Below are positions 5,669-21,450 of a stretch of 38,498 nt of DNA, piece after piece (the stretch's first letter is position 1; each line of letters opens with the position of its first letter). The DNA is taken from contig VXTP01000020.1 in assembly GCA_009837395.1 (NCBI GenBank), positions 1 to 38,498 of the forward strand. Direction: 5' to 3'. Position numbers and translations under genes: made by a program. The notes under the pieces are model-generated. The model saw only the letters and a list, made by a program, of their open reading frames with translations. It was not told where the DNA came from and searched no databases. This DNA comes from Gemmatimonadota bacterium. GTDB lineage: Bacteria; JAAXHH01.

Positions 5669-5697
5669 TTGACTTTGCCGCCGTACCGCGCTATAAT
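5669..5697 (+). promoter_or_regulatory. Sigma-70-type promoter of the aromatic superoperon
   Basis: TTGACT (5669-5674) and a perfect TATAAT (5692-5697) are separated by exactly 17 nt. Transcription would start near 5704. It lies about 48 nt before the leader peptide and about 320 nt before trpE(G). The 454-nt gene-free stretch 5564-6017 is therefore occupied by two divergent promoters, the leader peptide gene and the attenuator. No operator palindrome overlapping this promoter stood out, which fits control by attenuation. Confidence 0.9.
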
Positions 5698-5751
5698 GGC
5701 GCATTCGACAAACGGCAGCCGAACGGTTATCACATCGAGCAATGGACTGAA

Positions 5752-5871
5752 ATGACAGCCGCAAGTTCCTCCCGGTCATCCCGATTCTACGCTTGGCGGA
5801 AGCAGAGCGATCTGTTTACCTGGTGGCCTTTTTATGGGACGAGGCGGCATGTCATGCGAAGCGGCGCCTGA
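5752..5871 (+). CDS. trpL: trp leader peptide with Trp, Trp-Trp and Phe/Tyr codons
   Basis: A 39-codon reading frame between the promoter and the terminator of the aromatic operon. It contains Trp15, the tandem Trp24-Trp25, and a dense aromatic context (RFYAWR and LFTWWPFYG): three Trp, three Phe and two Tyr in 17 residues. Tandem Trp codons ahead of a terminator are the hallmark of ribosome-mediated trp attenuation. The ATG at 5752 has a modest GGA 7-9 nt upstream; no earlier in-frame ATG lies within the predicted transcript. The peptide itself probably has no function; its translation senses charged tRNA. The extra Phe/Tyr codons could widen the signal to other aromatic amino acids, which is inference. 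Confidence 0.85.
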   Translation: MTAASSSRSSRFYAWRKQSDLFTWWPFYGTRRHVMRSGA

Positions 5872-5909
5872 TTGAAGTAGATTCATCCTTCGTTGATTTG
5901 ACCGGCCTC
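5841..5909 (+). promoter_or_regulatory. Candidate antiterminator pairing of the trp attenuator
   Basis: GAGGCGG (5841-5847) can pair with CCGGCCTC (5902-5909): seven base pairs with one bulged G. This uses the left arm of the terminator hairpin, so the two structures exclude each other. A ribosome stalled at Trp24-25 (5821-5826) would leave 5841 onward free, which is the classical geometry. A second option is GTAGA (5877-5881), just past the leader stop, pairing with TCTAC (5908-5912). Which one operates cannot be decided by eye. Confidence 0.55.
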
Positions 5910-5940
5910 TACCCTCACAAGGTAGCGGCCTTTTTTGTTT
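5904..5940 (+). terminator. Rho-independent terminator (trp attenuator)
   Basis: GGCC-T-CTACC (5904-5913), a 7-nt loop CTCACAA, then GGTAG-C-GGCC (5921-5930): nine base pairs with one T/C mismatch, followed by TTTTTTGTTTT. It lies 33 nt after the leader peptide stop and 78 nt before trpE(G). A strong terminator inside the leader of a biosynthetic operon, behind Trp codons, is best read as an attenuator. Confidence 0.92.
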
Positions 5941-6017
5941 TATGGGGTGAATCGAACACGGCCGCTAAAGGGTTGGGGATACTTTAAGGATCGGTTCACC
6001 GGAAGCGGGACAGGACC

Positions 6018-8243
6018 ATGCGAGTTACCCACATACACCTGGAAGCCATCGAATACCAGACCGGAGGCGGCGTGTCCGTCAAGCGATACGCCGAGCATCT
6101 GCCACCGGACGAAGCCATCGAACCCGTAATCGACGCGCTCGATGCCCGCCTGGGCGCCCTGTTCGCGTCCGGTTACGAGTATCCCGGCAGGTATACCCGG
6201 TGGGACATGGGGTTCTTCGATCCGCCGATCCGGATCGAAACACGGGAGAACGCCTTTCGTATCGAGGCCCTGAACGCCCGGGGCAGGATGTTGCTGCCGG
6301 CGATCCTCGCGCAGGTCGAAGGCCTGCGGGCCACGCTTACCGTTGACCGTCACGAAGACCGCGTCTCCGGCGAGGTGCATCCGCCCGGCGAACATTTCCC
6401 GGAAGAGCAGCGCAGCCGGCAACCCTCCGTTTTCTCGATCCTGCGGGGGATCATCGACCTCTTCTCCTGCCCGGATGAGCATCATCTCGGCCTCTACGGC
6501 GCCTTCGGCTACGACCTGGCCTTCCAGTTCGAACCCATGGACTACCGGCTGAGCCGTCCGGCAGACCAGCGCGACCTGGTGCTCTACCTGCCCGACCGGC
6601 TGGTGACGGTCGATCACAACCGCGAGGTGGCCGTCCGGTACGATTACGAGTTCGATACGGGCGGCGGGTCTACCGTGGGCCTGCCCAGGGAGGGCGCCGT
6701 CCAGCCCTACCGCGCGGGCCAGGCCACGGCCGCCAGGGAGTTCGAGAAAGGCGCCTATGCCGACGTCGTCTGCAAGGCGCAGGAGTACTTCAGGCGAGGC
6801 GACCTGTTCGAAGTCGTACCCAGCCAGACCTTCTACGAGTCATGCCCGGACCCGCCTTCCGAGATCTTCCGCCGCCTGAGGGAACGGAATCCCGCGCCGT
6901 ACGCCACGCTCATCAACCTGGGACAGCGCGAATACCTGGTCGGCGCGTCGCCTGAGATGTTCGTCCGGGGCGAAGGGATCCGTATCGAGACCTGTCCCAT
7001 TTCAGGCACAGTCAGCCGGGGGAACGACGCGTTGAGCGACGCCGACCAGATCCTCAAGTTGCTGAGCTCGGAGAAAGAAGAGTCCGAGTTGACCATGTGC
7101 ACGGACGTGGACCGGAACGACAAGTCGCGGATCTGCGTGCCCGGCAGCGTCCGGGTCATCGGACGGCGTCAGATCGAGATGTACTCGAAGGTGATCCACA
7201 CGGTCGACCACGTGGAAGGCATCCTGCGGCCGGAATATGACGCGCTGGACGCCTTTCTCGCGCACACCTGGGCGGTCACCGTCACCGGCGCGCCGAAGAT
7301 CTGGGCGATGCGGTTCATCGAAAGCAACGAACGGTCGTGCCGGGCCTGGTACGGCGGCGCGATCGGATTCCTCGGATTCGACGGGAACATGAACACGGGG
7401 CTTACCCTACGCACCATACGCATCAAGGACGGGATCGCCGAGGTGAGGGCCGGGAGCACGCTGCTGATCGACTCCACACCCGAGGACGAGGAGCGCGAGA
7501 CGGAACTCAAGGCCATGGCGTTCATCGATGCGATAGGGCGTCCCCGTGAATCCCGGGAGGGAAGCGCCCATGCCGGATTCGCCGAAGACGCCGGATCGGG
7601 AAAGCGCGTGCTGCTGGTGGATTATGAAGATTCCTTCGTGCATACGCTGGCCAACTACCTGCGGCAGACCGGCGCCGACGTCATGACGGTCCGGACGGGC
7701 ATCTCGCGGTCCAGGCTGATGGAACTCATGGACGCCTACGACCCGGACCTGGTCTTTTTGTCGCCCGGTCCCGGCCAGCCGTCGGATTTCGACGTGGCGC
7801 TGGCCATCGACGCGGCGCTGGAACGGTCGCTGCCCATCTTCGGCGTCTGCCTCGGGCTGCAGGGTATCGTCGAGTATTTCGGCGGCACCCTGGGTGTGCT
7901 GCCCTATCCCATGCACGGGAAGGAGTCGCGCGTGACCGTCCGGGCCGGGGGGGCCGGGGCCCTGTTCGAAGGGTTCCCCCTGTCCTTCACCGTTGGCCGC
8001 TATCACTCACTGCACGCCGAACTAGATCGGCTGCCGCCGGAACTTACGGTCACGGCGGAGACCGAGGACGGCGTCGTCATGGCCATCGAACATCGCACGA
8101 TGCCCGTGGCGGCGGTGCAGTTCCATCCCGAGTCCATCATGACGCTCAAGGACGAGATCGGCCTCCGGCTCATCGACAACGTCTTCAGAAAACTGGTCAA
8201 AGCGGCCGATGCGGTGGACGCGAACCGGGAGGGCGGCCCATGA
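6018..8243 (+). CDS. trpE(G): Anthranilate synthase, fused TrpE-TrpG
   Basis: This 741-aa fusion makes anthranilate from chorismate and glutamine, the first committed step to tryptophan. Residues about 1-510 are the TrpE component with the chorismate-binding signature SELTMCTDVDRNDKSRICVPGSV, HTVDHVEG and GAPKIWAMRFI...YGGAIGF. A linker of about 20 residues leads to the class I glutamine amidotransferase from residue 529 (VLLVDYEDSFVHTLANYL). It has SPGPGQP, nucleophile Cys611 in GVCLGLQ, and His703/Glu705 in QFHPES. The single-chain layout and the DVDRNDKSR sequence resemble rhizobial TrpE(G); phenazine-type PhzE is excluded by the complete trp context. It is the first structural gene after the attenuator and overlaps trpS by ATGA. 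Confidence 0.96.
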   Translation: MRVTHIHLEAIEYQTGGGVSVKRYAEHLPPDEAIEPVIDALDARLGALFASGYEYPGRYTRWDMGFFDPPIRIETRENAFRIEALNARGRMLLPAILAQVEGLRATLTVDRHEDRVSGEVHPPGEHFPEEQRSRQPSVFSILRGIIDLFSCPDEHHLGLYGAFGYDLAFQFEPMDYRLSRPADQRDLVLYLPDRLVTVDHNREVAVRYDYEFDTGGGSTVGLPREGAVQPYRAGQATAAREFEKGAYADVVCKAQEYFRRGDLFEVVPSQTFYESCPDPPSEIFRRLRERNPAPYATLINLGQREYLVGASPEMFVRGEGIRIETCPISGTVSRGNDALSDADQILKLLSSEKEESELTMCTDVDRNDKSRICVPGSVRVIGRRQIEMYSKVIHTVDHVEGILRPEYDALDAFLAHTWAVTVTGAPKIWAMRFIESNERSCRAWYGGAIGFLGFDGNMNTGLTLRTIRIKDGIAEVRAGSTLLIDSTPEDEERETELKAMAFIDAIGRPRESREGSAHAGFAEDAGSGKRVLLVDYEDSFVHTLANYLRQTGADVMTVRTGISRSRLMELMDAYDPDLVFLSPGPGQPSDFDVALAIDAALERSLPIFGVCLGLQGIVEYFGGTLGVLPYPMHGKESRVTVRAGGAGALFEGFPLSFTVGRYHSLHAELDRLPPELTVTAETEDGVVMAIEHRTMPVAAVQFHPESIMTLKDEIGLRLIDNVFRKLVKAADAVDANREGGP

Positions 8244-8299
8244 ACCGGCCCATGAATCGACCCATGAATCGACCCATGAACCGGCCCATGAACCGGCGT
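8240..8299 (+). repeat. Five tandem 12-bp units encoding MNRP
   Basis: ATGAACCGGCCC and close variants (ATGAATCGACCC) occur five times head to tail, the last ending CGGCGT. Each unit supplies a start codon in the trpS frame. The natural enzyme begins near REVILTGIKPTG, so the repeats are an added N-terminal tail or a set of alternative starts. Confidence 0.95.
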
Positions 8300-9379
8300 G
8301 AAGTCATCCTGACGGGCATCAAACCGACGGGCAGTCCCCACCTCGGCAACTACATCGGCGCCATCCGGCCCGCGCTGGAACTCGCGCGGCGGTCGCCCGA
8401 AGCCCATGCCATGTATTTCCTGGCGGACTATCACGCCCTGACGCTTGTGAAGGACCCCGTGCGCTTCAGGGGCCTGTGCCACGAACTCGCCGCGACCTGG
8501 ATCGCCTGCGGGCTGGATCCCAAACGCCAGGTCTTCTACCGCCAGTCGGATGTGCCCGAGGTCTTCGAACTGTCCTGGATCCTGTCCTGTTCGACGTCGA
8601 AAGGCCTGATGAACCGCGCCCACGCGTACAAGGCGCTGGTGGACCGACACACGCGGGGCCACACGCGAGGCGGCGGGGACGCAGACGCAAGGGGTGTCGA
8701 CGCCGGTGATACGGACACCGGAGCCGGCGACGCCGGGGACACGGACGCCAGGGACGCGGACGCCGGGGTGAACATGGGACTGTATTCCTATCCCATACTC
8801 ATGGCGGCGGACATCCTGCTGTTCCAGGCGAAGTACGTTCCGGTGGGGCGGGACCAGGAACAGCACATCGAGATCGCGAGGGACATCGCCGCGCGTTTCA
8901 ACCGGAGCTTCGGCGACGTGCTCACCCTGCCGCAGTACCTGTCCGATCCTTCAACGGCAGAAATACCCGGTACGGACGGCAGAAAGATGAGCAAGGCCTA
9001 TAACAACACCATACCGCTTTTCGGGTCGCGCGAACTGTTGCGCAAGGCCATATTCGGGATCAGGACGGATTCGAGTCCGCCCGGCGCGCCTAAGGACCCC
9101 GGGACGTCGCTCGTATTCCAGATCTACAGGCAGTTCGCGGACGGGGACCGGACCGAGGTGATGCGAAGCCGGCTGGTGCGGGGCCGGATTACCTGGAAAG
9201 CGGCCAAGGAAGAGTTGTTCGACCTCATCGACGGTCTACTGGAACGCCCCAGGGCGGTCTACGAGGAGTTGATGGCCGACCGGTCCCGCATCGATCGCTT
9301 GCTGGAAGCGGGCGCCTGCAGCGCGCGGGAACTGGCCCGCCCGACCATGGATATCGTGCGAGAAGCGGTCGGGCGATAG
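8240..9379 (+). CDS. trpS: Tryptophan--tRNA ligase with repeat-expanded N-terminus and loop
   Basis: A 379-aa class I synthetase that charges tRNA-Trp. The HIGH-type motif is PHLGNY (His34-Asn37), followed by SYPILMAADILLFQAKYVPVGRDQEQHIE, and the KMSKS-type loop reads KMSKA (249-253) in GRKMSKAYNNTIPLF. Two oddities stand out. The N-terminus is MNRP repeated four times plus MNRR, so five in-frame ATGs are possible starts. Residues about 137-176 are a low-complexity Asp/Ala/Gly/Thr insertion where relatives have a short loop ending DPDxGV. ATGA overlap with trpE(G) couples translation. Placement in the attenuated operon means low charged tRNA-Trp should raise both the synthetase and Trp synthesis (inference). 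Confidence 0.95.
   Translation: MNRPMNRPMNRPMNRPMNRREVILTGIKPTGSPHLGNYIGAIRPALELARRSPEAHAMYFLADYHALTLVKDPVRFRGLCHELAATWIACGLDPKRQVFYRQSDVPEVFELSWILSCSTSKGLMNRAHAYKALVDRHTRGHTRGGGDADARGVDAGDTDTGAGDAGDTDARDADAGVNMGLYSYPILMAADILLFQAKYVPVGRDQEQHIEIARDIAARFNRSFGDVLTLPQYLSDPSTAEIPGTDGRKMSKAYNNTIPLFGSRELLRKAIFGIRTDSSPPGAPKDPGTSLVFQIYRQFADGDRTEVMRSRLVRGRITWKAAKEELFDLIDGLLERPRAVYEELMADRSRIDRLLEAGACSARELARPTMDIVREAVGR
8648..8767 (+). repeat. Low-complexity expansion inside trpS
   Basis: About 120 nt of degenerate repeats built from GACGCCGG and GACAC/GATAC-type units, in frame, encoding an Asp/Ala/Gly/Thr-rich segment of about 40 residues after two copies of HTRG. The reading frame is intact on both sides. 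It looks like a repeat expansion in a solvent-exposed loop. Confidence 0.8.
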
Positions 9380-9432
9380 CGTTCTTCATGCCGGGGTCCG
9401 GAGTTCAAGCGACGCGAAGGAGACAGGGTTCC

Positions 9433-10443
9433 ATGATACAGCAAGCCATTGCGAAGGCGATTGAAGGGACTTCGCTGACCGAAGCGGAAGCCGTGGAGGT
9501 CATGAACGGGATCATGTCGGGGGACGCCACGCCGGCGCAGATCGGCGCCTTCCTCGTCGCCTTCCGGCTGAAGGGCGAGACCATCGAGGAGGTCACCGGG
9601 TTCGCCCGGGTCATGCGCGCCAGGGCCACGAGGATCGACTGCAAGGCCTATCCCATCGTGGATACCTGCGGCACGGGCGGCGACGGAAAGCATACGTTCA
9701 ACATCTCGACGGCGGCGGCTTTCGTCGCCGCGGCCGCGGGCGCGTCCATCGCCAAGCACGGCGGCCGCGCGGCGTCCAGCAAAGCCGGCAGCGCCGACGT
9801 GCTGACGACCCTGGGCGTCAATATCGAAACACCGCCGGAAAGGGTTTCCGCCTGTATCGACGAGATCGGCATCGGGTTCATGTTCGCCCCTGCCCTCCAC
9901 TCGGCCATGCGGTTCGCGAGCGGTCCGCGCCGGGAACTCGGCGTGCGGACGGTGCTCAACCTGCTGGGACCGCTGACCAATCCGGCCGGGACCACGGCCC
10001 AGGTCATGGGCGTATACGACGCGAGCGTCATCCAGACCGCCGCCCACGTGCTGAACAACCTGGGGGCGGAGCACGCTTTCGTGGTGCACAGCGCGGACGG
10101 GCTGGACGAGTTCACCACCACGGCGCCGACCCACGTGGCGGAGGCCCGGGACGGCGTCGTGAGGACCTATGACGTCGCGCCGGAAGATTTCGGCCTGCCG
10201 CGGGCGTCTATCGAGGACCTCAGAGGGGGCGAGGCGGAAGAGAACGCGGAGATCATCCGGTCCGTGCTGGGCGGGGAGTCCGGTCCCCGGCGGGACATCG
10301 TCCTGCTCAACGCGGCGGCGGCGATCGTGGCCGGTCGCGCCGCGGAGGATTTCGACGAGGGCATCGAAAAGGCGGCCCGGGCCATCGACACCGGCGGGGC
10401 GCGGGAGAAACTCGCCGCGCTGGTCCGCATGACCGGCGAATGA
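9433..10443 (+). CDS. trpD: Anthranilate phosphoribosyltransferase
   Basis: The enzyme transfers phosphoribose from PRPP to anthranilate (second Trp step). The 336-aa product shows the PRPP-binding glycine loop CGTGGDG (79-85) in DTCGTGGDGKHTFNISTAAA, KHGGRAASSKAGSADVL and the anthranilate-site RRELGVRTVLNLLGPLTNP. It lacks a TrpG domain, consistent with TrpG being fused to TrpE here. The ATG at 9433 is chosen because AAGGAG lies 10 nt upstream and MIQQAIAKAI aligns with family starts; an earlier in-frame ATG at 9388 would add 15 residues without family character. The gap to trpS is 53 nt. Confidence 0.97.
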   Translation: MIQQAIAKAIEGTSLTEAEAVEVMNGIMSGDATPAQIGAFLVAFRLKGETIEEVTGFARVMRARATRIDCKAYPIVDTCGTGGDGKHTFNISTAAAFVAAAAGASIAKHGGRAASSKAGSADVLTTLGVNIETPPERVSACIDEIGIGFMFAPALHSAMRFASGPRRELGVRTVLNLLGPLTNPAGTTAQVMGVYDASVIQTAAHVLNNLGAEHAFVVHSADGLDEFTTTAPTHVAEARDGVVRTYDVAPEDFGLPRASIEDLRGGEAEENAEIIRSVLGGESGPRRDIVLLNAAAAIVAGRAAEDFDEGIEKAARAIDTGGAREKLAALVRMTGE

Positions 10444-10513
10444 CCTTCCGGACCGCGTGCGCCGAACCCCGCGCGTCGGCCCCGGGAAACGGGATGGGAA
10501 AGACTCGAAAGTC

Positions 10514-11347
10514 ATGAATATCCTTGATCGGATCGTAGCGCATAAAATCGAAGAGGTCGAAGACCGGAAGCGGCGTGTGCCCCTGCCCAAAGGCGAGCCC
10601 GTTCGCCGCCGCGACATCCGCCCCTTCGACCGCGCGCTGGAACTCGGAGACGGTATCGGGGTCATCGCCGAATTCAAGAAGGCCTCGCCGTCGAAGGGCG
10701 CGATCCGTCCCGACGCGGCGCCCGCGGAGATCGGACCGGTCTACGCGGCCCACGGGGCTTCGGCCATATCGGTGTTGACGGACCGGCGGTTCTTCCAGGG
10801 TTGCGACGAGGACCTGGCGGTACTCCGGCGATGCGTCCCCGTGCCCGTGCTGCGCAAGGAGTTCATCGTGGACGAGTACCAGGTCCACGAGACCGCGGCA
10901 TTGGGCGCGGACGCCATGCTGCTCATCGCGGCCATCCTGGACGACACCCGCCTGGCGGCCCTGCAGCGGACCGCGGCGGCCTGCGGCCTGCACTGCCTGG
11001 TGGAGGTCCACGACGAGGGGGAACTGGACCGGGCCCTGGCGGCGGGCAGCCGCATTATCGGCATTAACAACCGGGACCTGACGGACTTCACCGTTTCGCT
11101 GGAAACGTCACTGCGACTCAGGCCGCGCATCCCCCCGGGCATCGTGACCGTCAGCGAGAGCGGGATCCATGGGCGCGAGGACGTCCTGCGGCTGCAGGAG
11201 GCGGGATTCGACGCCGTACTCGTGGGCGAGTCCCTGATGGGGGCGGAGGAGATCGGCGGACAGCTGGACGCCCTGCTGGGCCGGTCCGCCGCGAAGGCGC
11301 AACAGGGGATCCGAAGTCGAACGGCTACCCCGGGGGCAGGGCGATGA
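10514..11347 (+). CDS. trpC: Indole-3-glycerol phosphate synthase
   Basis: A 277-aa TIM barrel that closes the indole ring from CdRP. Conserved catalytic segments are IAEFKKASPSKG (Glu53, Lys55), VLRKEFIVDEYQ (Lys), CLVEVHDEGEL (Glu), GINNRDL (Asn) and VSESGI (Ser). The start at MNILDRIVAHK fits the family; an in-frame ATG at 10457 is possible but adds 19 basic residues. The Shine-Dalgarno is weak (GGGAAAGA). The C-terminal 20 residues after LLGRSAA are extra and Arg/Ala-rich. It overlaps trpF by ATGA. Confidence 0.97.
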   Translation: MNILDRIVAHKIEEVEDRKRRVPLPKGEPVRRRDIRPFDRALELGDGIGVIAEFKKASPSKGAIRPDAAPAEIGPVYAAHGASAISVLTDRRFFQGCDEDLAVLRRCVPVPVLRKEFIVDEYQVHETAALGADAMLLIAAILDDTRLAALQRTAAACGLHCLVEVHDEGELDRALAAGSRIIGINNRDLTDFTVSLETSLRLRPRIPPGIVTVSESGIHGREDVLRLQEAGFDAVLVGESLMGAEEIGGQLDALLGRSAAKAQQGIRSRTATPGAGR

Positions 11348-11958
11348 GCACGGTCAGGATCAAGATCTGCGGCATCACGAACGAGGGGGACGCCGCCGCG
11401 GCCGTTCGCGCGGGCGCGGACGCGCTCGGGTTCATTTTCTATACGGGCAGTCCCCGGTACGTGGCGCCGGAACGGGCCGCGGAAATCGTGGCCGGACTGC
11501 CGCCCTTCGTCGTGCCGGTGGGCGTATTCGTGAACGCGGCGGCGGGCGACGTCGACGAAATCTGCGAAGCCGCGGGAATCCAGGTCGTGCAGCTCCACGG
11601 CGACGAACCGCCCGGTTTCTGCGACGCGATGAAGCGTCCGGTCATCAAGGCCTTCCGCGTCAGGGACGCATCGTGGAAATCCGATGCCGCGGCCTACCCC
11701 GTCGGCGCGGTACTGCTCGATACGTTCGCCGAAGACCGGTACGGCGGCACGGGGACCACCTTCGACTGGCGGTTCGTGGAAGACAGTCCCCACCGCGTCA
11801 TCCTGAGCGGCGGACTGAATCCGGACAACGTGGCCGAGGCCGTGCGCAGCGTGCGGCCCTACGGCGTGGATACGGGCAGCGGCGTGGAGCGGGAACCGGG
11901 CCGCAAGGATCACGGCAAGATCCGGGATTTCGTGGAGGCGGCGAGGCGGACCTTATGA
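11344..11958 (+). CDS. trpF: Phosphoribosylanthranilate isomerase
   Basis: This 204-aa TIM barrel carries out the Amadori rearrangement of PRA to CdRP. It has VRIKICGITNEGDA with the general base Cys9, VQLHGDEPP, the general acid Asp in AVLLDTF, LSGGLNPDNV and a phosphate-binding end GVDTGSGVERE (DTGSGVE rather than the common DVSSGVE). It is monofunctional and distinct from TrpC. It starts in the trpC stop and ends in the aroE start, ATGA overlaps on both sides, so the three genes are translationally coupled. Confidence 0.96.
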   Translation: MSTVRIKICGITNEGDAAAAVRAGADALGFIFYTGSPRYVAPERAAEIVAGLPPFVVPVGVFVNAAAGDVDEICEAAGIQVVQLHGDEPPGFCDAMKRPVIKAFRVRDASWKSDAAAYPVGAVLLDTFAEDRYGGTGTTFDWRFVEDSPHRVILSGGLNPDNVAEAVRSVRPYGVDTGSGVEREPGRKDHGKIRDFVEAARRTL

Positions 11959-12842
11959 TCTCTACGCATGAAAACGGGCCCAACGGCCCCGCCATATCGG
12001 GTTCAACCCGCGTGGTCGGCGTATGCGGGCAGGGCATCGGATATACGCTATCGCCGGCCATGCATAACGCGGCTTTTCGCCATTGCGGTCTGGATTACGT
12101 GTATGTAACCTTCGAAATCGCGGAATCTGAAGTGCGTCGGGCCGTCGACGGCATCCGGGGACTGGGTCTGGCGGGGGTCAACGTGACCAAGCCGCTCAAG
12201 ACGGACGTGCTGCCCTACCTGGACGAGGTGTCCGAAGAAGCCCGAAAGATCGGTTCGGTCAACACCATCGTGAACCGGTCGGGCCGCCTTGCCGGCTCGT
12301 CGACGGACGGCGCCGGACTGTTGCGCGCCCTTGGGGAAAAAAGCGTTGCCGTCGCGGGTTCGAGGATGTTGATCCTGGGTGCGGGCGGCGCGGCCCGGGC
12401 GGCCTGCGCCATGGCCCGCGGGCAGGGGGCCGCATCGATTACCATTGCCGCGCGCAACGCGGACCGTGCCCGGGACACGGCGTCGGTGGGTGGCGCGGAG
12501 GCGACCACGCTTTCGCCTTCCGACCTCGGCGTCGCGGTCCGGGAGGCCGACCTGGTGATCAACGCGATCCCGGGGGACCTGCCGCTGGAAGGCGACTGGT
12601 TCACCGGCGGACAGTTCGTCTACGACACGCGTTACGACCAGGCGGAGACCGGGCTGATGCGATGCGCACGGTCGCGGGGCGCGGAGACCTCGAACGGCAT
12701 TGGCATGCTGCTGTTCCAGGGTGCGGCGTCTTTTGAAATCTGGACTGGCCGCGAGGCGCCGGTCGAAGTGATGAGAAGCGCATTGGAGGAACAGCTACGG
12801 CGCAGGACGGCCCGGGAGGAGAAGGCATGTTGCGATACCTGA
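11955..12842 (+). CDS. aroE: Shikimate dehydrogenase (NADP+)
   Basis: This enzyme reduces 3-dehydroshikimate to shikimate. The 295-aa product has [13 protein letters not shown] (substrate site), [17 protein letters not shown] with the catalytic Lys, [16 protein letters not shown] with the catalytic Asp, the NADP-binding [12 protein letters not shown] and a C-terminal [19 protein letters not shown]. Start at 11955 overlaps the trpF stop (ATGA); the first about 20 residues before [15 protein letters not shown] are longer than usual. The 3' end overlaps aroC by 16 nt. YdiB- or RifI-type paralogues are less likely given the shikimate genes that follow. Confidence 0.95.
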
Positions 12843-13984
12843 CCGCAGGCGAATCACACGGACCGGCCATATCGGCGATCCTCGAAGGACTGCCCGCGGG
12901 GCTGCCGGTGGCCGCGGAAGACATCGACCGGGACCTGAAACGGCGTCAGGGCGGCTACGGACGGGGCCGGAGAATGCAGATCGAGACCGATACGATCGAG
13001 ATCCGAGGCGGCGTGCGCCACGGCAGGACCATGGGCGGACCGGTTTCTCTCGTCGTGCAGAACCGGGACTGGCAGAACTGGACGGACGTGATGGCGATCG
13101 AGGAGACCGACGGTCCGGTGCGGCGGCGGGTGACCCGTCCCCGCCCCGGCCACGCCGATCTCGCGGGCGGACTGAAGTACGACCGCCGCGATCTGCGGGA
13201 CATCCTGGAACGGGCGAGTGCGCGGGAGACGACCATGCGCGTCGCGGTCGGCGCGATCGCCCGGTCCCTCCTCGGGGCCTTCGGCATACGCGTGCTCAGC
13301 CACGTGGTGCGGATCGGTCAGGTGGACGCGGACGTGAGCGGCCTGTCGAACGATGAGATCATCGAACGGGCCGAGGCCTCGCCCGTGCGCTGCGCCGACG
13401 AAGACGCCGCGCAGAAGATGATCGCGGAAATCGACCGGGCGAAGTCCCTCAAGGACACCATCGGCGGGGTCTTCGAGGTCAAGGTGCTGAACGCGCCGCC
13501 CGGTCTCGGCAGCCACGTGCAGTGGGACCGCAAGCTCGACGGCCGCCTGGCCCAGGCCGTCATGAGCATCCAGGCCGTGAAGGGCGTGGAGATCGGGTTG
13601 GGCTTCGGCGTGACCCGGGTCCTCGGTTCCGAGGTCCACGACGAGATCTTCTACGAAGGTGGACGGTTCTACCGCGAAACGAACCGGGCCGGCGGCGTCG
13701 AGGGCGGCATGACCGAAGGCGAGGAGATCGTCGTCCGCGGCGCGCTCAAGCCCATCGCGACGCTCATGCGTACGATCATGTCGGTGGATATCGAGACCAA
13801 GGAGGCCTTCGATTCCGCCAAGGAGCGGTCGGACGTGTGCACCGTGCCCGCCGCAGGCGTGATCGGCGAAGCGGTAGTGGCCTTCGTCGTCGCCGACGCC
13901 ATGCAGGAGAAATTCGGGGGCGACAGCCTGGAGGAAATGCAGCGCAACTACCAGGGCTACATGGACCAGCTGGCGCGTTACTAG
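12827..13984 (+). CDS. aroC: Chorismate synthase
   Basis: This 385-aa FMN-dependent enzyme converts EPSP to chorismate. Signatures include [17 protein letters not shown] at the N-terminus, [45 protein letters not shown] and GVEIGLGF. The length is at the upper end of the usual 350-390. The start lies inside the aroE 3' end and the stop is 2 nt before aroKB. Its product is the branch point used by TrpE(G) and the chorismate mutase encoded in the same operon; its substrate comes from EPSP synthase (aroA), which is not in the window. Confidence 0.97.
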
Positions 13985-13986
13985 CG

Positions 13987-15624
13987 ATGGAAACGGCACG
14001 GGCAACAGGCGGACGGGAAGTGGCTGAACCTGGAAAACATCAGACCGGCGGCATTGTCCTGATCGGCTTCATGGGCACGGGCAAGACGGCGGTAGGCTGG
14101 CGCCTCGCGCGCGCCCTGGGCGTGCCCTTCGTGGATACCGATGCGCTGATCGAGAAGAAGGCGGCGGCGCGTATCCCGGAGATCTTCGAGCAGCAGGGGG
14201 AGTCCGGTTTCCGGGCGATCGAGAAAGCGGTCATCCGGAGCCTTGCCGACGGGGTTCGGAGGGTGGTCGCCACCGGCGGCGGCGCGGTGCTCGATCCGGA
14301 CAACTTCGCCGTGCTGCGGTCGCTGGGTCCGGTCATTCACCTGAAGGCGCCGGCAGAAACGGTCCTGGCACGCACGCGAGGCGATTCAGGGGTAAGACCG
14401 CTCCTGGCCGGAAACGACCCGCTCGAACGGATCCGGTCGCTCCAGCGCGAGCGCGCGCCGGTCTACGGCCGGGCGGACCACGAAATCGATACGTCGCGGC
14501 ATACGATCGAGGAAACGGTGGGAATGGTCAAGACCTGGGCAGAAAGTGAAGAACGCGTGATCCGGGTGGACCTCGGCCCCGACAGCTATGATATCGTGAT
14601 CGGGCCCGAGGTGCTCGACCGGCTGGGACAGCGGATGAAATCCTTCGATCTGACCGGCCGCGCGCTGGTCGTGACCCATCCGGGCATCGCGGAACGCTAC
14701 GGTGGCCGGACGACGGACTCGCTGCGGGCGGCCGGCTTCGAACCGGACTTGGTCGAAGTGCCGGAAGGCGAGGCGCAGAAGTCGCTTCCCTGGGCTGAAA
14801 AGCTCTATGACGCCATGCTGGACCACGGGATGGACCGCCGTTCCCCCGTCATCGCGCTGGGCGGCGGGGTCATTGGAGACCTGGCCGGTTTCGCCGCGGC
14901 TACCTTCCTGCGCGGCGTCCCGTTCATCCAGGTCCCCACCTCGCTCCTGGCCCAGGTGGACGCCAGCGTGGGGGGCAAGGTGGCCGTGGACCACCGCCGC
15001 GGGAAGAACCTGATCGGCGCGTTCTACCAGCCCCTGCTCGTGCTGGCCAGCCTGGATACGCTCGACAGCCTGCCGGACCGGGAACTGCGCGCGGGCATGG
15101 CGGAAGTGATCAAGTATGGCGTCATTGCAGACCCCGGCCTGTTCGCCTATATTGAGGGGCGCCTGGACGATATACTGAAGCGCGATCGCGGCGTGCTGGC
15201 ACACCTCGTGGCGCGGTCCTGCGAGATCAAGGCGGAAGTGGTCGCCGGCGACGAGCGCGAACAGGGACGGCGCGCCATACTCAACTTCGGCCATACCATG
15301 GGCCACGCCATCGAGACGCAGACGGGCATGCTGCACGGCGAGGCCGTAGCCATCGGCATGGTCTACGCCGCACGGGTAGCGGAACGCATGGAAATGCTGG
15401 ACGGCGAAAGCGTCCGGCGACTGATCGAACTGGTGCGGCGCACGGGCCTGCCCGACCGGTGCGACGGGTTGGACGTCCCGGCAACGATCGAGACCATGAA
15501 GTTCGACAAGAAGTCGGTGGGCGGCCGTCCACGTTTCATCCTGCCCGGCCGCATCGGCGAGGTGGCCGTCCGCGACGACGTGCCCGCCGAATACATCCGG
15601 TCCGTCCTTGCGACGGGGAACTAA
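13987..15624 (+). CDS. aroKB: Shikimate kinase / 3-dehydroquinate synthase fusion
   Basis: A single 545-aa reading frame contains two shikimate-pathway enzymes. Residues about 22-185 are shikimate kinase: P-loop [11 protein letters not shown] (Lys33), [19 protein letters not shown] and [10 protein letters not shown]. Residues about 189-545 are dehydroquinate synthase: [60 protein letters not shown] and [11 protein letters not shown] with metal-ligand His. No stop or frameshift lies between them, so the fusion is real in this sequence. AroKB fusions are known, for example in Thermotoga. The ATG is 2 nt past aroC without a clear Shine-Dalgarno, suggesting coupling. The two activities are not consecutive pathway steps. 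Confidence 0.95.
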
Positions 15625-15668: not shown

Positions 15669-16118
15669 ATGATGAAAATACTCGTGTTGCACGGCCCGAA
15701 TCTGAACATGCTGGGCGTCCGGGAACCGGAAGTCTACGGTACGGATACGTTGGAGGACATCAACCGGTCCCTCAAGACAGCCGCGGCGGGACGGGGGATC
15801 GAGATGCGCATCCGCCAGTCCAACCACGAGGGTGTGCTGGTGGACGAGATCCAGCAGGCCCTCGGCTGGGCCGACGGCATCCTGATCAATCCGGGCGCCT
15901 ACACCCACACGAGCATCGCCCTGCGCGACGCCATCGTCGCCGTGGGCCTGCCCGTCGTGGAAGTCCACCTGTCGGACATACACGCCCGGGAGACGTTCCG
16001 GCATCATTCCTATATCGAGCCCGTGGCGCTCAGGCAGATCTGCGGACACGGAAGCGACAGCTATCGACTGGGCCTGGAGGCCCTGATCGACCACCTCGGG
16101 AACGGGAGCGAAGGATGA
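15669..16118 (+). CDS. aroQ: 3-dehydroquinate dehydratase, type II
   Basis: The 149-aa product removes water from 3-dehydroquinate. It is a short type II dehydroquinase: [23 protein letters not shown] with the active-site loop, [32 protein letters not shown] and [19 protein letters not shown] are all hallmark segments. Two adjacent ATGs (15669, 15672) are possible; the first is used. It follows aroKB by 44 nt and overlaps trpB by ATGA. It sits inside the trp genes, between trpF and trpB, together with aroE, aroC and aroKB. Confidence 0.97.
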
Positions 16119-17341
16119 CGGCGACCACGCTGCCCGACCAGCGCGGACATTTCGGGATATTCGGCGGCCGCTACGTTCCGGAGACGCTGATGACGGCCCT
16201 GGACGAGCTGCTCGAAGTGTACGAGACGGCGAAAACGGACCCGGAATTTGAGGAGGAGTTCCGGTACTACCTCCGGGACTACGTGGGCCGTCCGTCCCCC
16301 CTCTACTACGCGGAGCGGCTGACGCAGACCCTCGGCGGCGCGCGGATCTATCTCAAGCGGGAGGACCTGAACCACACGGGCGCCCACAAGATCAACAACA
16401 CGATTGGCCAGATCCTGCTCACCCGGCGCATGAAGAAACCGCGGGTCATCGCGGAGACCGGGGCGGGCCAGCACGGCGTGGCCACGGCCACCGTGGCCGC
16501 ACGTTTCGGCCTGGAATGCGACGTCTACATGGGTTCCGAGGACATGGAACGCCAGGCGCTGAACGTCTTCCGCATGCGCCTCATGGGCAGCCGTGTAATC
16601 GCCGTCGACGCGGGCAGCCGCACGCTGAAGGACGCGTTGAACGAGGCCCTGCGCGACTGGGCGACCAACGTCCGCCATACCCATTACATCATCGGGTCGG
16701 TGGCAGGGCCCCATCCCTTCCCCATGCTGGTGCGTGATTTCCAGTCGGTCATCGGCCGGGAAGCGCGGGAGCAGGTCCTGGAGAAAGAAGGCCGGCTCCC
16801 CGACGTGCTGGTCGCCTGCGTGGGGGGCGGCAGCAACGCCATCGGACTCTTCCATCCCTTCCTCGACGACGGCGTTCGCCTGGTCGGCGTGGAAGGCGCG
16901 GGGCACGGGCTGGATACGGACATGCACGCGGCGACGCTGGGCCTGGGCACCCCGGGTGTGCTGCACGGCGCCATGAGTTATACCGGACAGGACGCGAACG
17001 GCCAGATTCAGGTGGCCCATTCCATCTCCGCGGGACTCGACTATCCCGGCGTGGGACCCGAGCACAGCTACCTGAAGGACTCCGGCCGCGCGGAGTACGT
17101 GAGCGTGACCGACGACGAGGCACTGGATGCCTTCGAACTGCTCTCAAGAGTCGAAGGCATCATACCCGCGCTCGAAAGCGCCCATGCCATTGCCCATATC
17201 GCCCGGATCGCCCCGGAAATGGACCGGGAGGAGGTCATCGTCGCCGGGTTGTCGGGCCGCGGAGACAAGGACGTCGAGCAGGTGGACGGGTTACTGGCCC
17301 GGAACAGTGAGCGTGGAGAGCGCGCAGGAGGCGCCGAATGA
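16115..17341 (+). CDS. trpB: Tryptophan synthase, beta chain
   Basis: This PLP enzyme condenses indole with serine to tryptophan. The 408-aa product is the classical TrpB1 type: [15 protein letters not shown] at the N-terminus, the PLP lysine Lys92 in [26 protein letters not shown], the phosphate-binding [10 protein letters not shown] and LSGRGDKD near the C-terminus. The Shine-Dalgarno GAAGG is directly upstream and the start overlaps the aroQ stop; the stop overlaps trpA (ATGA), as expected for subunits of one alpha2beta2 complex with channelled indole. Confidence 0.98.
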
Positions 17342-18159
17342 ACCGGATCGAAGAGACCTTCGCGTCGCTGAAGTCAGCGGGTCGCAAGGCGCTGATTCCC
17401 TACGTAATGGCGGGGGACCCGGACCTGGACACGACGGCCGCGCTGGTCGCTGAACTGGACCGACGCGGGGCCGACCTGGTGGAACTGGGCGTGCCCTTCT
17501 CCGATCCCATCGCCGACGGCCCCACGATCCAGCGCGCCGCGCTTCGGGCGCTGAACGGGGGCACGACCCTGCGGTCCATCATCGAGACGGTCGCTTCCAT
17601 CCGGGAACATACCGGCATACCGGTGGTACTGATGACCTACTACAACCCGGTCCTCGCCTACGGGATCGGGGACTTCTGCCGGGATGCGGCCCGCGCGGGG
17701 GTGGACGGGCTGATCGTGCCCGATCTCCCGCCGGAGGAGGGGGCCGATCTGTCCGACGCCTGCCTTAAGCACGGCCTCACCGTCGTTTTCCTGGTGGCGC
17801 CCACGAGCACTTCGGCACGGATCGACCTGGTGAACCGCCACACCACGGGATTCGTCTACTGCGTCTCCCTGATGGGCGTCACGGGCGCGCGGGGAGAACT
17901 GGCGGACGGGGTGGACGTGTTCATGGCGCAGGTGCGGTCCCGCACGGACCGGCCCCTCGGACTGGGCTTCGGCATCTCGTCGCCCGAGCAGGCCGGAGAG
18001 GCCGCCCGCCTGGCCGACGGCGTCATCGTGGGCAGCGCCATCATCAACGTGATGGAAGCGCACGCAGGCGAGCCCGATATGCTCCGGTCCGTCGGCGAAT
18101 ACGTGGCTTCACTGAGGGCGGGCATGGACCGGGAAACGCCGGTCGCCGTGCAGGGGTAG
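17338..18159 (+). CDS. trpA: Tryptophan synthase, alpha chain
   Basis: The 273-aa TIM barrel cleaves indole-3-glycerol phosphate and passes indole to TrpB. The two catalytic acids fall at the textbook positions: Glu49 and Asp60 in [14 protein letters not shown]. Other family segments are [23 protein letters not shown] and [10 protein letters not shown]. It starts in the trpB stop (ATGA). It ends the Trp-specific part of the operon; the next gene is 196 nt away. Confidence 0.98.
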
Positions 18160-18162
18160 CAT

Positions 18163-18179: not shown

Positions 18180-18215
18180 CGATGCCCGTACGCATGGTAC
18201 GCATGGAGCATTGAA

Positions 18216-18317
18216 ATGATACAGGTTTCACGTCGAAAGGGTGATGCGTGTGGGCGTCCAGGAGACCGGTCAGGTCTTCGTGGCGCCCACGTATTCACCT
18301 CCCTTTTCATGCTTTGA
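18216..18317 (+). CDS. Possible short leader-type ORF between trpA and aroH
   Basis: ATG at 18216 has GGAG seven nt upstream (18205-18208) and opens a 33-codon frame ending VFTSLFML. It passes through the hairpin at 18250-18290 and the CCTCCC at 18298-18303, and stops 39 nt before aroH. The short size and overlap with RNA structure suggest a leader peptide if translated at all. The codons are not strikingly rich in one amino acid (two Phe near the end). No homology is recognisable. Confidence 0.25.
   Translation: MIQVSRRKGDACGRPGDRSGLRGAHVFTSLFML
18250..18290 (+). ncRNA. Stable stem-loop in the trpA-aroH spacer
   Basis: GTGGGCG (250-256) pairs with CGCCCAC (284-290), CCA with TGG directly inside, and AGACC with GGTCT around a 5-nt loop: 15 base pairs with one bulge and one small internal loop. 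This is much stronger than expected by chance in a 196-nt spacer. No U-tract follows, so it is not a simple terminator. It may be an mRNA processing or stability element or part of a regulatory leader for aroH-aroF. Confidence 0.6.
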
Positions 18318-18351
18318 TCGGGTAATATCCAGCGTTCACTGTCCCGGGAGG
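18298..18351 (+). promoter_or_regulatory. Candidate Shine-Dalgarno-sequestering pair ahead of aroH
   Basis: CCTCCC (18298-18303) is exactly complementary to the aroH Shine-Dalgarno GGGAGG (18346-18351), with 42 nt between. Pairing would hide the ribosome site. It follows the stem-loop immediately and is overlapped by the possible short ORF, so ribosome movement could open or close it. The six-base match is short, hence modest confidence. Confidence 0.35.
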
Positions 18352-18355
18352 AATC

Positions 18356-18721
18356 ATGGTCCGAGGCATTCGCGGCGCGATAACCGTTGAATCGAACACT
18401 TCCGAAGCCATTTGCGAGGCATCGCGTCGGTTGCTTACTACAATAGTCGAACGGAACCGCATCGAATTAGAACACATCATCAGCGTCTTTTTTTCGTCGA
18501 CGAAAGATCTCGATGCACAGACACCCGCCTACGGCGTGCGCCAGATGGGGTGGACAGCGATCCCCCTGTTCTGCACGCAGGAGATGGAGGTTCCCGGGAG
18601 TCTTCCCGGGTGCGTTCGGGTGCTGGTTCATGTAAATATGGAAAAATCGCAGGATGAAATACGGCATGTCTACCTGGACGGCGCCGTCGTGCTCCGGCCG
18701 GACATTGCCGAGGGAGGCTGA
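18356..18721 (+). CDS. aroH: Chorismate mutase, AroH class
   Basis: This enzyme converts chorismate to prephenate, the entry to Phe and Tyr. The 121-aa product matches the trimeric Bacillus subtilis AroH type rather than the helical AroQ type: it begins VRGIRGAITVE and ends with IRHVYLDGAVVLRPD. Expected active-site residues are present: Arg6, Glu76 in CTQEMEV, Arg88 and Tyr106. GGGAGG lies 4 nt before the ATG. Its stop is followed after 1 nt by the DAHP synthase start, so the two are coupled. It is monofunctional; the mutase is not fused to PheA, TyrA or the DAHP synthase. Confidence 0.96.
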   Translation: MVRGIRGAITVESNTSEAICEASRRLLTTIVERNRIELEHIISVFFSSTKDLDAQTPAYGVRQMGWTAIPLFCTQEMEVPGSLPGCVRVLVHVNMEKSQDEIRHVYLDGAVVLRPDIAEGG

Positions 18722-18722
18722 A

Positions 18723-19739
18723 ATGGTGGTTGTGATGAAACTTCATGCAACGGAAGACGAGAAGGAGCACGTCCGGGAGACGATCCGGGCCTTCGGCTGT
18801 AAACCACGGGACATCCAGGGCGACGAGATGTCCATCATCTGCGTGATCGGCAATACCCTGAGCCTTTCGCCCGAACAGTTCGATATCCTGGACGGGGTGG
18901 ACCGCGTTCAGCGCATCCAGCGGCCCTACAAGCTGGTAAGCCGGGAGGTGCAGCCGCACAAGACCCGTTTCAAGGTGGGCGACGTGACGGTCGGCGGCGA
19001 CGGCATTACCATCATCGCCGGTCCCTGTTCCGTCGAATCCTACGACCAGTTCCTGGAGGCGGCGCAACACGCCCGGACCGCGGGAGCCCACATCATACGC
19101 GGCGGCGCGTTCAAGCCCAGGACCTCGCCCTACAGCTTCCAGGGGCTCGGCGAGGAAGGCCTGAAGATCATGGCCCGGGTCAGCGAGGAAACGGGCCTGC
19201 CGACCATCTCGGAGGTGATGGAGCCCGAGATGGAACCCATGGTCTCGGAATACGTGGACATGCTGCAGGTCGGTGCGCGGAACATGCAGAACTATCCGCT
19301 GCTGAACGTAGTGGGACACAGCAGCAAGCCCGTCATGCTCAAGCGGGGCATGTCCGCCACGCTCGAGGAGATGCTGCTGGCGGCCGAGTACATCCTGGCG
19401 GCGGGGAACCACAATGTCATCCTGTGCGAAAGGGGTATCCGGACCTTCGAGACCTGGACCCGGAACACGCTCGACATCTCCGCCGTGCCCGTGCTGCAGA
19501 AATACACCCATCTGCCCGTGTTCATCGACCCGAGCCACGGGACCGGAAACGCCGATTTCGTGGGACCGGCCGCCCGGGCGGCCGTGGCGGTGGGCGCCGA
19601 CGGACTCATGATCGAGATGCATCCGACGCCGGAACGCGCGCTGTCCGACGGGGACCAGTCCCTGACTCCGGAAGCGCTGACCTCCCTGATCCCGGAACTG
19701 CAGGCGGTCGCGACGGCCGTCAACCGAACTATCGGCTGA
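18723..19739 (+). CDS. aroF: 3-deoxy-7-phosphoheptulonate (DAHP) synthase, type I-beta
   Basis: The 338-aa product condenses PEP and erythrose 4-phosphate, the first shikimate step. Residues about 1-75 form the extra ferredoxin-like N-terminal domain of the Thermotoga-type enzyme (MVVVMKLHATEDE ... YKLVSREVQPH), which in that family mediates Tyr/Phe feedback inhibition. The barrel follows: TIIAGPCSVES, RGGAFKPRTSPYSFQGLG, QVGARNMQNY, CERGIRTFETWTRNTLDI and IDPSHGTG. The ATG at 18723 has GGGAGG upstream; ATG at 18735 is a minor alternative. Domain layout suggests inhibition by Phe/Tyr rather than Trp (inference). tyrA follows after 8 nt. Confidence 0.97.
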   Translation: MVVVMKLHATEDEKEHVRETIRAFGCKPRDIQGDEMSIICVIGNTLSLSPEQFDILDGVDRVQRIQRPYKLVSREVQPHKTRFKVGDVTVGGDGITIIAGPCSVESYDQFLEAAQHARTAGAHIIRGGAFKPRTSPYSFQGLGEEGLKIMARVSEETGLPTISEVMEPEMEPMVSEYVDMLQVGARNMQNYPLLNVVGHSSKPVMLKRGMSATLEEMLLAAEYILAAGNHNVILCERGIRTFETWTRNTLDISAVPVLQKYTHLPVFIDPSHGTGNADFVGPAARAAVAVGADGLMIEMHPTPERALSDGDQSLTPEALTSLIPELQAVATAVNRTIG

Positions 19740-19747
19740 GTTGGCCT

Positions 19748-20611
19748 ATGCGCATCACCATTATCGGCGTGGGACTGCTGGGCGGTTCCTTCGGCATGGC
19801 GGTCCGTAAGGCGGGGGTTGCGGAACGCGTCGCGGGCGTCGACCTGGACCGGACCGTGCTGGACCGGGCACAGGAGCGCGGCGCCATCGACGCGGGATAC
19901 CTGGAAACGGCCGAAGGGGTGGAAGGGGCCGACCTGGTCGTCCTCGCCATGCCCGTGCGGTCCATTTTGGACATGCTGCCCGGCCTCGCGACGCTGCTCG
20001 GTCCGGAGACCATCCTCCTGGACCTGGGCAGCACGAAGGAGGCGATCGTTTCCGCCGTCGCCGGCCAGGCCGGCATCAGGAGATACGTCGGCGGACACCC
20101 CATGGCGGGCACCGAGCACACCGGCATCGAGCACGCCGATGACGGGTTGTTTCAGGACGCGACTTTCGCCCTGGTTCCGCCCCCCGGGGTGGATGAAGGC
20201 GCCCTCGACCTGCTCAAGGACCTGGTCCGCCGGATCGGGGCGCGTCCCGCCGTCATTCCCGCCGATCGCCACGACCGGATCGTCTCCGTTACCAGCCACC
20301 TGCCCTACCTGCTGTCCGCAGTGCTGGCCCTGGCCGCGGAGAAGACGGCGCGCGAGGAAGAACGCCTGGGCGAGTTCGCCGCGTCGGGATTCCGGGACAC
20401 GACCCGCCTGGCCGCGTCCACCGTGCGGGTGATGGCCGACATCTGCCTGACCAACGGGCGGCCCCTGCTGCGCGGCATCGAGGAAGCCAGGCGGTTGCTC
20501 GACGACCTGGCGGCGCAGATCGAGGAGGGGCGCGAGTCGGAACTGGTGAAGACGCTGACGAAGGCGAAGGAAAGCAGGGCCGCGTTGCTGCGTGAAAGGA
20601 GGACCGATTGA
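19748..20611 (+). CDS. tyrA: Prephenate dehydrogenase
   Basis: A 287-aa NAD(P)-dependent enzyme oxidising prephenate to 4-hydroxyphenylpyruvate. The Rossmann motif is IIGVGLLGGSFG (residues 5-16), the catalytic His117 lies in GGHPMAGTEHTG, and SHLPYLLSAVLA is the second conserved His segment. There is no mutase or ACT domain. Arogenate could be an alternative substrate, which cannot be decided here. The start 8 nt after aroF was chosen because the Rossmann motif begins at residue 5. The stop overlaps the pheA TTG start; AAAGGAGG inside its end serves pheA. Confidence 0.95.
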   Translation: MRITIIGVGLLGGSFGMAVRKAGVAERVAGVDLDRTVLDRAQERGAIDAGYLETAEGVEGADLVVLAMPVRSILDMLPGLATLLGPETILLDLGSTKEAIVSAVAGQAGIRRYVGGHPMAGTEHTGIEHADDGLFQDATFALVPPPGVDEGALDLLKDLVRRIGARPAVIPADRHDRIVSVTSHLPYLLSAVLALAAEKTAREEERLGEFAASGFRDTTRLAASTVRVMADICLTNGRPLLRGIEEARRLLDDLAAQIEEGRESELVKTLTKAKESRAALLRERRTD

Positions 20612-21450
20612 AGAAGTACAGGACCGGCTTCCAGGGCGAGTTGGGAGCCTTCAGCGAGATGGCCGTGCTCGCCTATTTCGGAGACGCGGCAGAACCGGTT
20701 CCCCACGGATGGTTCGACGACGTGTTCCGCGCCGTGGACGAGGGCAGCTGCGATTACGGCATGCTGCCTATCGAGAACACCCTGGCGGGCAGCATCCACG
20801 TCAATTACGACCTGATGCAGGAGCACGACCTGCAGATCGTGGGTGAAATCGTGCTCCGCATCGTCCACAACCTGATGGCGAAACCGGGCGTCCGGCCGGA
20901 GGAACTCCGCCGGGTCCAGTCTCATCCCAAGGCGCTCGAACAGTGCGTCCGGTTCTTCCGTGAGCATCCGTCGATGAAACCCGAAACCGTGTACGATACC
21001 GGTGGCGCGGCCAAGATGCTCGGTGAGGGAGAAGGCCGGGACATCGGCGTGATCGCGAGCACGCGGGCCGCGGAGCGGTATGGACTGGAGATCCTTGAGC
21101 GCGGGATCGAAGACAACCCCCAGAACTATACACGTTTCCTGGTTTTGGGCAGAGCGCCCGAACCATCGGAGGGCGAGCGCATGAAGACCTCCATCGTCTT
21201 CTCGGTGCCCCACGAACCCGGCATGCTGTTCAAGGCCATGAGCGTCTTCGCCCTGCGGGACATCTCCATCAACAAGATCGAATCGCGGCCCCTGGTCGGA
21301 TCCCCCTGGGAGTACCTGTTCTACCTGGATTTCGAGGGGCACGCCGAGAGCCTGCTCTGCAGCCGGGCGCTCAACCACCTCAGGGAGATCGCGGCCAACT
21401 TCAAGCTGCTGGGCTCCTACGCCGAGGGCCGCATCGTGGACCGGGTCTGA
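20608..21450 (+). CDS. pheA: Prephenate dehydratase with ACT domain
   Basis: This 280-aa enzyme makes phenylpyruvate from prephenate. It has GFQGELGAFSEMAV, PIENTLAGSIHVNYDLM, QSHPKALEQC and the signature NYTRFLVLG (Thr175, Arg176, Phe177). The C-terminal ACT domain from about residue 192 contains the Phe-binding ESRP motif in INKIESRPLVGSPWEYLFYLDFEG, so Phe feedback is likely. It begins with TTG, placed in a TTGA overlap with the tyrA stop and 5 nt after a full AAAGGAGG. It is the last gene of the superoperon and converges on the rqcH-like gene. Confidence 0.96.
   Translation: MKKYRTGFQGELGAFSEMAVLAYFGDAAEPVPHGWFDDVFRAVDEGSCDYGMLPIENTLAGSIHVNYDLMQEHDLQIVGEIVLRIVHNLMAKPGVRPEELRRVQSHPKALEQCVRFFREHPSMKPETVYDTGGAAKMLGEGEGRDIGVIASTRAAERYGLEILERGIEDNPQNYTRFLVLGRAPEPSEGERMKTSIVFSVPHEPGMLFKAMSVFALRDISINKIESRPLVGSPWEYLFYLDFEGHAESLLCSRALNHLREIAANFKLLGSYAEGRIVDRV

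Follow-up and report, generated by a model that had tools for sequence, protein, structure and literature searches.

Textbook transcription attenuators respond to one amino acid, or to a set from one branched pathway, and leaders that read several amino acids are known for the branched-chain operons. The subject of this study is an aromatic amino acid superoperon of 15 genes found in a 38,498-nucleotide stretch of bacterial DNA (contig VXTP01000020.1, the window hereafter), which is one of the 47 contigs (C12) of a 3.8-Mb genome labelled G000. Its control region has the same parts as the trpL, pheL and ilv-type attenuators, a short leader open reading frame (ORF) with regulatory codons and a terminator before the first gene, and differs from them in placing codons for all three aromatic amino acids before a single operon. 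In its working, such an attenuator would be of the trpL type.

The joining of aromatic pathways in one operon has precedents, which are given here as far as the accessible part of one report describes them (PMC1173090). The supraoperon of Desulfovibrio vulgaris, aroA'-aroB'-aroQ/pheA-aroF-tyrA-[trp operon], is preceded by a putative attenuator and thus, like the window, joins Phe, Tyr and complete Trp genes behind one; it differs in having 12 genes, in placing the aro, tyr and phe genes ahead of an uninterrupted trp operon, and in that no aroE, aroC, aroK or aroQ-type dehydroquinase is named in that part of the text. The aro-trp supraoperon of Bacillus likewise holds aro, trp and tyr genes together, but there the trp operon lies inside an aro operon under TRAP, whereas in the window an aro block lies inside trp, behind a putative leader-peptide attenuator. 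For Thermotoga, a cluster of common-pathway aro genes with tyrA is described, in which two of the aro genes are fused; trp genes are not said there to belong to it.

An earlier reading of this DNA from its letters (the sequence-only reading) had drawn the same contrast with Bacillus, and it holds: aroE-aroC-aroKB-aroQ stand between trpF and trpB, and the Bacillus-type flanking arrangement is absent. Its remark that no operon so complete had been described must be narrowed, given the core gene order in a genome outside the phylum (G156), the superoperons of KSB1 and of genomes G024 and G153, and the published relative in D. vulgaris, so far as the latter's account is accessible. The kind of superoperon is already known; what is new is this variant with a three-amino-acid leader. 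A literature search, mainly of open-access titles and abstracts, returned no description of a Phe/Tyr/Trp leader or of a Latescibacterota superoperon, and a term search of the accessible text of two papers on Latescibacterota (PMC12993501, PMC4454575) found no mention of such an operon.

We consider it likely that the block is one pan-aromatic superoperon, controlled as a whole by a single ribosome-mediated attenuator of transcription that reads Phe, Tyr and Trp. When charged tRNA for any one of them runs short, the ribosome would stall at the matching codon in the leader, the downstream RNA would fold as an antiterminator holding the 5' arm of the terminator, and transcription would continue into the operon, switching on the whole pathway. 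With all three aromatic amino acids plentiful, the ribosome would reach the stop codon and cover the antiterminator segment, upon which the terminator would form and transcription would end. A tri-aromatic leader of this kind would explain why three branches could share one control. The elements concerned are these.

5669..5697, + strand: sigma-70-type promoter, TTGACT-17-TATAAT, an 11/12 match to the consensus
5752..5871, + strand: leader ORF of 39 amino acids, MTAASSSRSSRFYAWRKQSDLFTWWPFYGTRRHVMRSGA (3 Trp, 3 Phe, 2 Tyr), with a comparable ORF in 16/16 genomes
5836..5913, + strand: predicted antiterminator, its 3' strand being the 5' arm of the terminator, from folding with modest statistical support
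5904..5930, + strand: intrinsic terminator hairpin, GGCCTCTACC-loop-GGTAGCGGCC, then a T run, from a pattern search

A putative leader ORF with regulatory codons (F12, Y13, W15, F22, W24, W25, F27 and Y28) is found between the promoter and the first gene, and an intrinsic terminator follows it, in keeping with the promoter-attenuator proposed by the sequence-only reading; the leader codons for three amino acids, and a second tryptophanyl-tRNA synthetase (TrpRS) encoded in the operon, go beyond it. The comparison set consisted of 16 Candidatus Latescibacterota genomes (G000-G015, G000 included), 12 of them from the window's genus. A leader ORF with all three aromatic residues and a terminator is present in every one of the 16, the exact terminator pattern occurring once per genome in 15 and as a one-base variant in the other, while among 2000 shuffles of the region the same search gave this combination once. 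Relative to a background of 5.8% in the operon's proteins, the binomial chance of the leader's aromatic content is 0.0013 in G000, 9e-7 in G012, 0.0009 in G013 and 1e-5 in G014; the leaders of G012 (MSFMLPVFFSYSFRPFWQAFRFVWRPFYPAIARRDTTRS), G013, G014 and G015 (MTFIVSPISVYRIQAWLWRVFPFTRWFFTGLR) are divergent in sequence and still aromatic-rich. A scan of 5500-21700 returned no sigma-70-type match besides the one at 5669-5697. Because shuffled sequence yields a mean of 2.0 matches, the promoter match alone proves nothing, and separate support comes from its positional conservation in relatives, the spacing being identical in the 11 congeners checked. A riboswitch or T-box was considered and rejected: in the Rfam search only tRNAs scored above gathering in the window, and the best score within 5650-6030 was SAM_alpha at 19.6 of 36 bits, below gathering. 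Upstream of the promoter, CGCAACTGTTTTCTT (5632-5646) is invariant in 11 aligned congeners and nearly so in G012 and G013; it is perhaps a regulator site.

By its AroC, which is 98, 96, 92 and 91% identical to that of Candidatus Latescibacterota bins, the window's genome belongs to this phylum, and we take the title of a 99% AroC relative, Gemmatimonadetes bacterium, as an older label. The sequence-only reading had proposed a gene-order search in relatives, and the series recurs: trpE to pheA lies on a single contig in 11 of the 16 genomes (G000-G006, G008, G010, G011, G013), and in G007, G009, G012, G014 and G015 it is split over contigs with no conflicting order, some genes not being recovered (tyrA of G012 and G015 was recovered in an additional search). 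Because the gene order recurs in other assemblies of the phylum, a chimeric contig is ruled out. This is a real operon, and one of long standing in its phylum.

At 6018-21450, NCBIfam families recover all 15 genes on one strand in the order that the sequence-only reading had given, trpEG-trpS-trpD-trpC-trpF-aroE-aroC-aroKB-aroQ-trpB-trpA-aroH-aroF-tyrA-pheA.

6018..8243, + strand: trpEG, fused anthranilate synthase (NF010081 / TIGR01815, above cut-off)
8240..9379, + strand: trpS, second TrpRS (TIGR00233, above cut-off)
9388..10443, + strand: trpD (TIGR01245)
10457..11347, + strand: trpC (NF001377)
11344..11958, + strand: trpF (NF002298)
11955..12842, + strand: aroE (TIGR00507; start recomputed)
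12827..13984, + strand: aroC (TIGR00033)
13987..15624, + strand: aroKB, fused shikimate kinase / dehydroquinate synthase (TIGR01357 above cut-off, kinase families N-terminal; start recomputed)
15669..16118, + strand: aroQ, type II dehydroquinase (TIGR01088; start recomputed)
16115..17341, + strand: trpB (TIGR00263; start recomputed)
17338..18159, + strand: trpA (TIGR00262)
18250..18290, + strand: hairpin between trpA and aroH, present once in the genome, no T run after it
18356..18721, + strand: aroH, chorismate mutase (TIGR01796)
18723..19739, + strand: aroF, DAHP synthase (TIGR01361, above cut-off; start recomputed)
19748..20611, + strand: tyrA (PF02153 above cut-off; prephenate dehydrogenase families score up to 198 bits, each below its own cut-off)
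20608..21450, + strand: pheA, prephenate dehydratase (NF008865, above cut-off)

Because TrpEG and AroKB are fusions, the 15 genes encode 17 enzyme functions, the second TrpRS included, which cover the seven shikimate steps save one, the entire Trp branch, and the chorismate mutase, prephenate dehydratase and prephenate dehydrogenase branches. The order aroE-aroC-aroKB-aroQ is, we presume, that of Thermotoga as well. The remaining shikimate gene, aroA, which the sequence-only reading had reported missing from the block, is on contig C24 of G000 (TIGR01356), where no adjoining aro gene was identified; the other EPSP-family match is murA. Each of the 16 genomes has a single TrpB match, and 15 have a single AroC match, with none in G009. 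In G000 itself Chorismate_bind has one match and PF00793 two, the operon's aroF and one elsewhere; KDO8P synthase, we assume, falls in the same Pfam family. The same reading's description of the junctions as mostly ATGA overlaps is somewhat overstated: five junctions are of this form, and with the TTGA of tyrA/pheA the 4-base overlaps come to 6 of 14. With the best starts, aroE and aroC overlap by 16 bases and six junctions are gaps of 1-44 bases, which leaves the 196 bases between trpA and aroH (18160-18355) as the widest of the 14.

That all of this would form a single transcription unit is well supported by the anatomy, the spacing, the promoter scan and the gap comparison being consistent with it. 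At least two units, one of trp-aro genes and a second, aroH-aroF-tyrA-pheA, controlled from the 196-base gap, are an unlikely arrangement, which draws its strength from the single-copy gap hairpin: this aligns in 9 of the 12 congeners, with stem pairs exchanged (GGGCG/CGCCC vs GGGAG/CTCCC). It also gains from G012, of a related genus, where a gene for an NPN-dependent ornithine cyclodeaminase (TIGR00300; L118, ~13794-15274) stands between trpA and aroH; G013 has an ORF similar to it at the same place, and G014 and G015 have a gap of about the same size as the insert. Set against this, the gap at 18160-18355 has no terminator match and no promoter match in the sigma-70-type scan (other promoter types were not searched), and its width within the genus runs from 22 to 243 bases, with 30 in G001, 22 in G004 and, as judged from hit ends, about none in G009, so that those three species lack room for separate control. 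As to the hairpin's nature, a dispersed repeat was rejected on its one copy in G000, and a terminator on the missing T run. The view of the sequence-only reading, that output is controlled largely as one unit, has been strengthened by the conserved single promoter, the tri-aromatic leader and the gap's lack of promoter and terminator matches, and continues to rest on sequence.

A second phylum offers a comparison. In KSB1 a pan-aromatic cluster likewise stands behind a Phe/Tyr/Trp leader and terminator, but the aro genes follow an unbroken trp operon, and the leader and terminator sequences are unlike those of the window. The sample comprised 40 regions from 40 genomes, together with G059, of 51 genomes with a TrpE match, and a leader was called in 29 of the 40 regions. 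Four genomes (G085, G087, G129, G130) have the order trpE-G-D-C-F-B-A-aroF-tyrA-aroE-aroC-aroK-aroQ; G059 has the KSB1 superoperon order with trpS between aroF and tyrA; and G140 and G141 have trp-aroF-tyrA. All of these carry Phe, Tyr and Trp in the leader (the terminator of G130 was missed by the script and is readable in the sequence). For G059, locus L065 extends upstream (contig C75) into trpE-trpG-trpD-trpC, with the leader MKISLSTYFVNFGFWFWYWYYYYARGGKAMSGLT and a terminator before trpE. With tri-aromatic defined as Trp>=2, Tyr>=2 and Phe>=1, such leaders were found in 6/6 KSB1 operons with tyrA and a called leader and in 2/15 without tyrA, counting those with at least 8 kb read (Fisher p 0.0005, by a criterion chosen after the leaders were seen and over genomes that are not independent). 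The two exceptions are G064 (WWWYY) and G084, the latter cut at a contig edge after aroF; operons without tyrA otherwise have leaders that are mostly Trp runs.

These data bear on whether the window has a plain Trp attenuator in which the Phe and Tyr codons are incidental, with aro, tyrA and pheA riding on Trp control, which we regard as quite improbable. W15 and W24 do lie in the sensitive stretch of the leader, and F and Y may be there by chance; some KSB1 leaders without tyrA hold F or Y, and that of G064 passes as tri-aromatic. Against it, KSB1 leaders such as FGFWFWYWYYYY precede operons with tyrA, and a Tyr codon between F12 and W15 is kept in 12/12 congeners though its place shifts, because residues 13-14 (YA, YY, NY, HY or DY) always include Y.

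Beyond these two phyla the picture is mixed. Of 80 named loci, eight are from Latescibacterota, and among the other 72, many of them short, trp genes lie near aroC in three (L065, L069, L080); L069, from Acetothermia, was rejected as a superoperon, with aro and trp on opposite strands and no leader found. Across 220 genomes (16 Latescibacterota), TrpE and TyrA are close together on one strand in at least eight others, picked by eye among the matches listed. One from outside the phylum, G156, carries trpC-trpF-aroE-aroC-aroK-aroB-aroQ-trpB-trpA-aroF behind a Trp/Tyr-rich leader (5 Trp, 4 Tyr, 3 Phe) followed by a terminator. It shares with the window the core trpF-aroE-aroC-aroK-aroB-aroQ-trpB as well as leader and terminator, so that this gene order is not confined to Latescibacterota; it differs in that tyrA adjoins trpE, aroK and aroB match separately, and aroH, pheA and trpS have no match in the stretch. 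Partial superoperons occur in G174, G235 and G150. No leader was called in G024, G153, G174, G235, G186 or G292, and that of G150 is doubtful; with six such candidates and one doubtful, the idea that superoperons across the domain generally have tri-aromatic leaders is not supported. Among 52 controls without TyrA nearby, likewise picked by eye among the matches listed, a leader was called in two, neither of them tri-aromatic.

The predicted switch was explored by equilibrium folding, with a stalled ribosome masking the RNA to 13 bases past the start of the A-site codon. For G000 the predicted terminator probability is 0.02 for a stall at F12, 0.10 at Y13, 0.00 at W15, 0.12 at F22 and 0.15 at W24, rising to 0.93 at W25, 0.95 at F27, 0.99 at Y28 and 0.99 at the stop codon. 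With the low values from F12 to W24, at least one codon for each aromatic amino acid would favour read-through. The boundary moves with the footprint: at 10 bases, W25 falls to 0.15 and F22 rises to 0.43, and at 16 bases W24 rises to 0.93. The antiterminator is predicted in G000, G012, G013 and G014, and RNAalifold gives one antiterminator across six sequences, in which 2 of 19 pairs have changes in both strands. A clear equilibrium switch is predicted for G000; in G013 and G156 most of it is seen, and in G014 and G059 it is partial.

Several observations weigh against an attenuator that reads all three amino acids. Y13 is the sole Tyr codon in the sensitive part, Y28 being placed where stalling should favour termination, and the leader ATG has a weak start-site context, with no strong ribosome-binding site ahead of it. 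The antiterminator's covariation term is slightly unfavourable (+0.34, for the six sequences), and folding z-scores are weak in G000 (-0.50) and G012 (-0.35), as against -4.0 in G013 and -2.4 in G014. The equilibrium switch is weak or absent in G012, G087, G141, G134 and G102, and the E. coli trpL control does not switch at equilibrium either (0.84-0.97), so that the test is not discriminating; equilibrium folding was dropped as proof of a switch because of that control. A trpL without an equilibrium switch is to be expected if the real choice is kinetic. To these may be added the post hoc criterion and non-independent genomes of the KSB1 test, and the superoperons without a called leader, near-complete in G024 and G153, which make the leader less than universal among superoperons, and partial in G174.

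That the peptide itself is the effector, by nascent-chain arrest (TnaC-like) or in trans, is very improbable: the congeners have almost the same peptide, its non-aromatic C-terminal GTRRHVMRSGA included, but the DNA that encodes this part varies hardly at all either, as expected if an RNA fold is what is kept, and the peptides of G012, G013, G014 and G015 differ widely yet stay aromatic-rich.

Taking the tri-aromatic attenuator as the preferred reading, a wider proposal has, in our judgement, about an even chance of being right: that three-amino-acid aromatic attenuators recur (in Latescibacterota, in KSB1 and in at least one further lineage), that their leader codons co-evolve with the operon's genes, and that the leader is a conserved core behind which the first enzyme genes are exchangeable cassettes. 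Were this so, Phe and Tyr codons would appear in the leader or vanish from it as tyrA and the aro genes join or leave the trp operon. Under the preferred reading itself, a 39-codon peptide would let a whole three-product pathway, shikimate included, answer scarcity of any one product. KSB1 and Latescibacterota, with related operons that have or lack tyrA and aro genes, would offer a natural test of such co-evolution, the closest pair for a comparison of codon content being G141 and G134.

The exchange of first genes can be followed within Latescibacterota. Ten congeners have a fused trpEG, nine of these (G011 being the exception) with the operon trpS, which is present in 9 of the 16 genomes, all with fused trpEG; a split trpE-trpG without trpS is found in G004 and G005, of the window's genus, and in G012, G013 and G014. 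Between G004 and G005 the split TrpE proteins are 93% identical, and between G004 and G013 75%, close to the operon means of 89 and 72%; the fused TrpEG of G000 and G008 are 86% identical, equal to the operon mean. On a tree of 13 operon proteins, at least three changes between split and fused heads were counted by hand, and leader and promoter are the same in split-head and fused-head genomes. The leader has stayed while trpE-trpG and trpEG(-trpS) heads were exchanged behind it, an operon example whose control region outlasts its first enzymes.

Judged by its sequence, the operon trpS encodes a second TrpRS: a separate TrpRS gene exists in 16/16 genomes (C34:166194-167150 in G000), its product 32-42% identical to the operon TrpRS over two segments. 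Auxiliary TrpRS genes under attenuation are known from Streptomyces, with trpS2 of S. avermitilis described in the accessible part of PMC1262725. Resistance to a Trp analogue would be a guess at the role of the operon enzyme. The start of trpS has a 12-base tandem repeat (8234-8297) that gives five in-frame ATG codons (MNRPMNRPMNRPMNRPMNR), and a low-complexity insert lies within the gene at 8674-8768.

Outside the operon, a 33-base tandem repeat in 3.5 copies occupies 21471-21584, between pheA and a convergent NFACT/RqcH-like gene, and four tRNA genes (Thr, Gly, Tyr, Thr) lie on the minus strand at the start of the contig (126-572).

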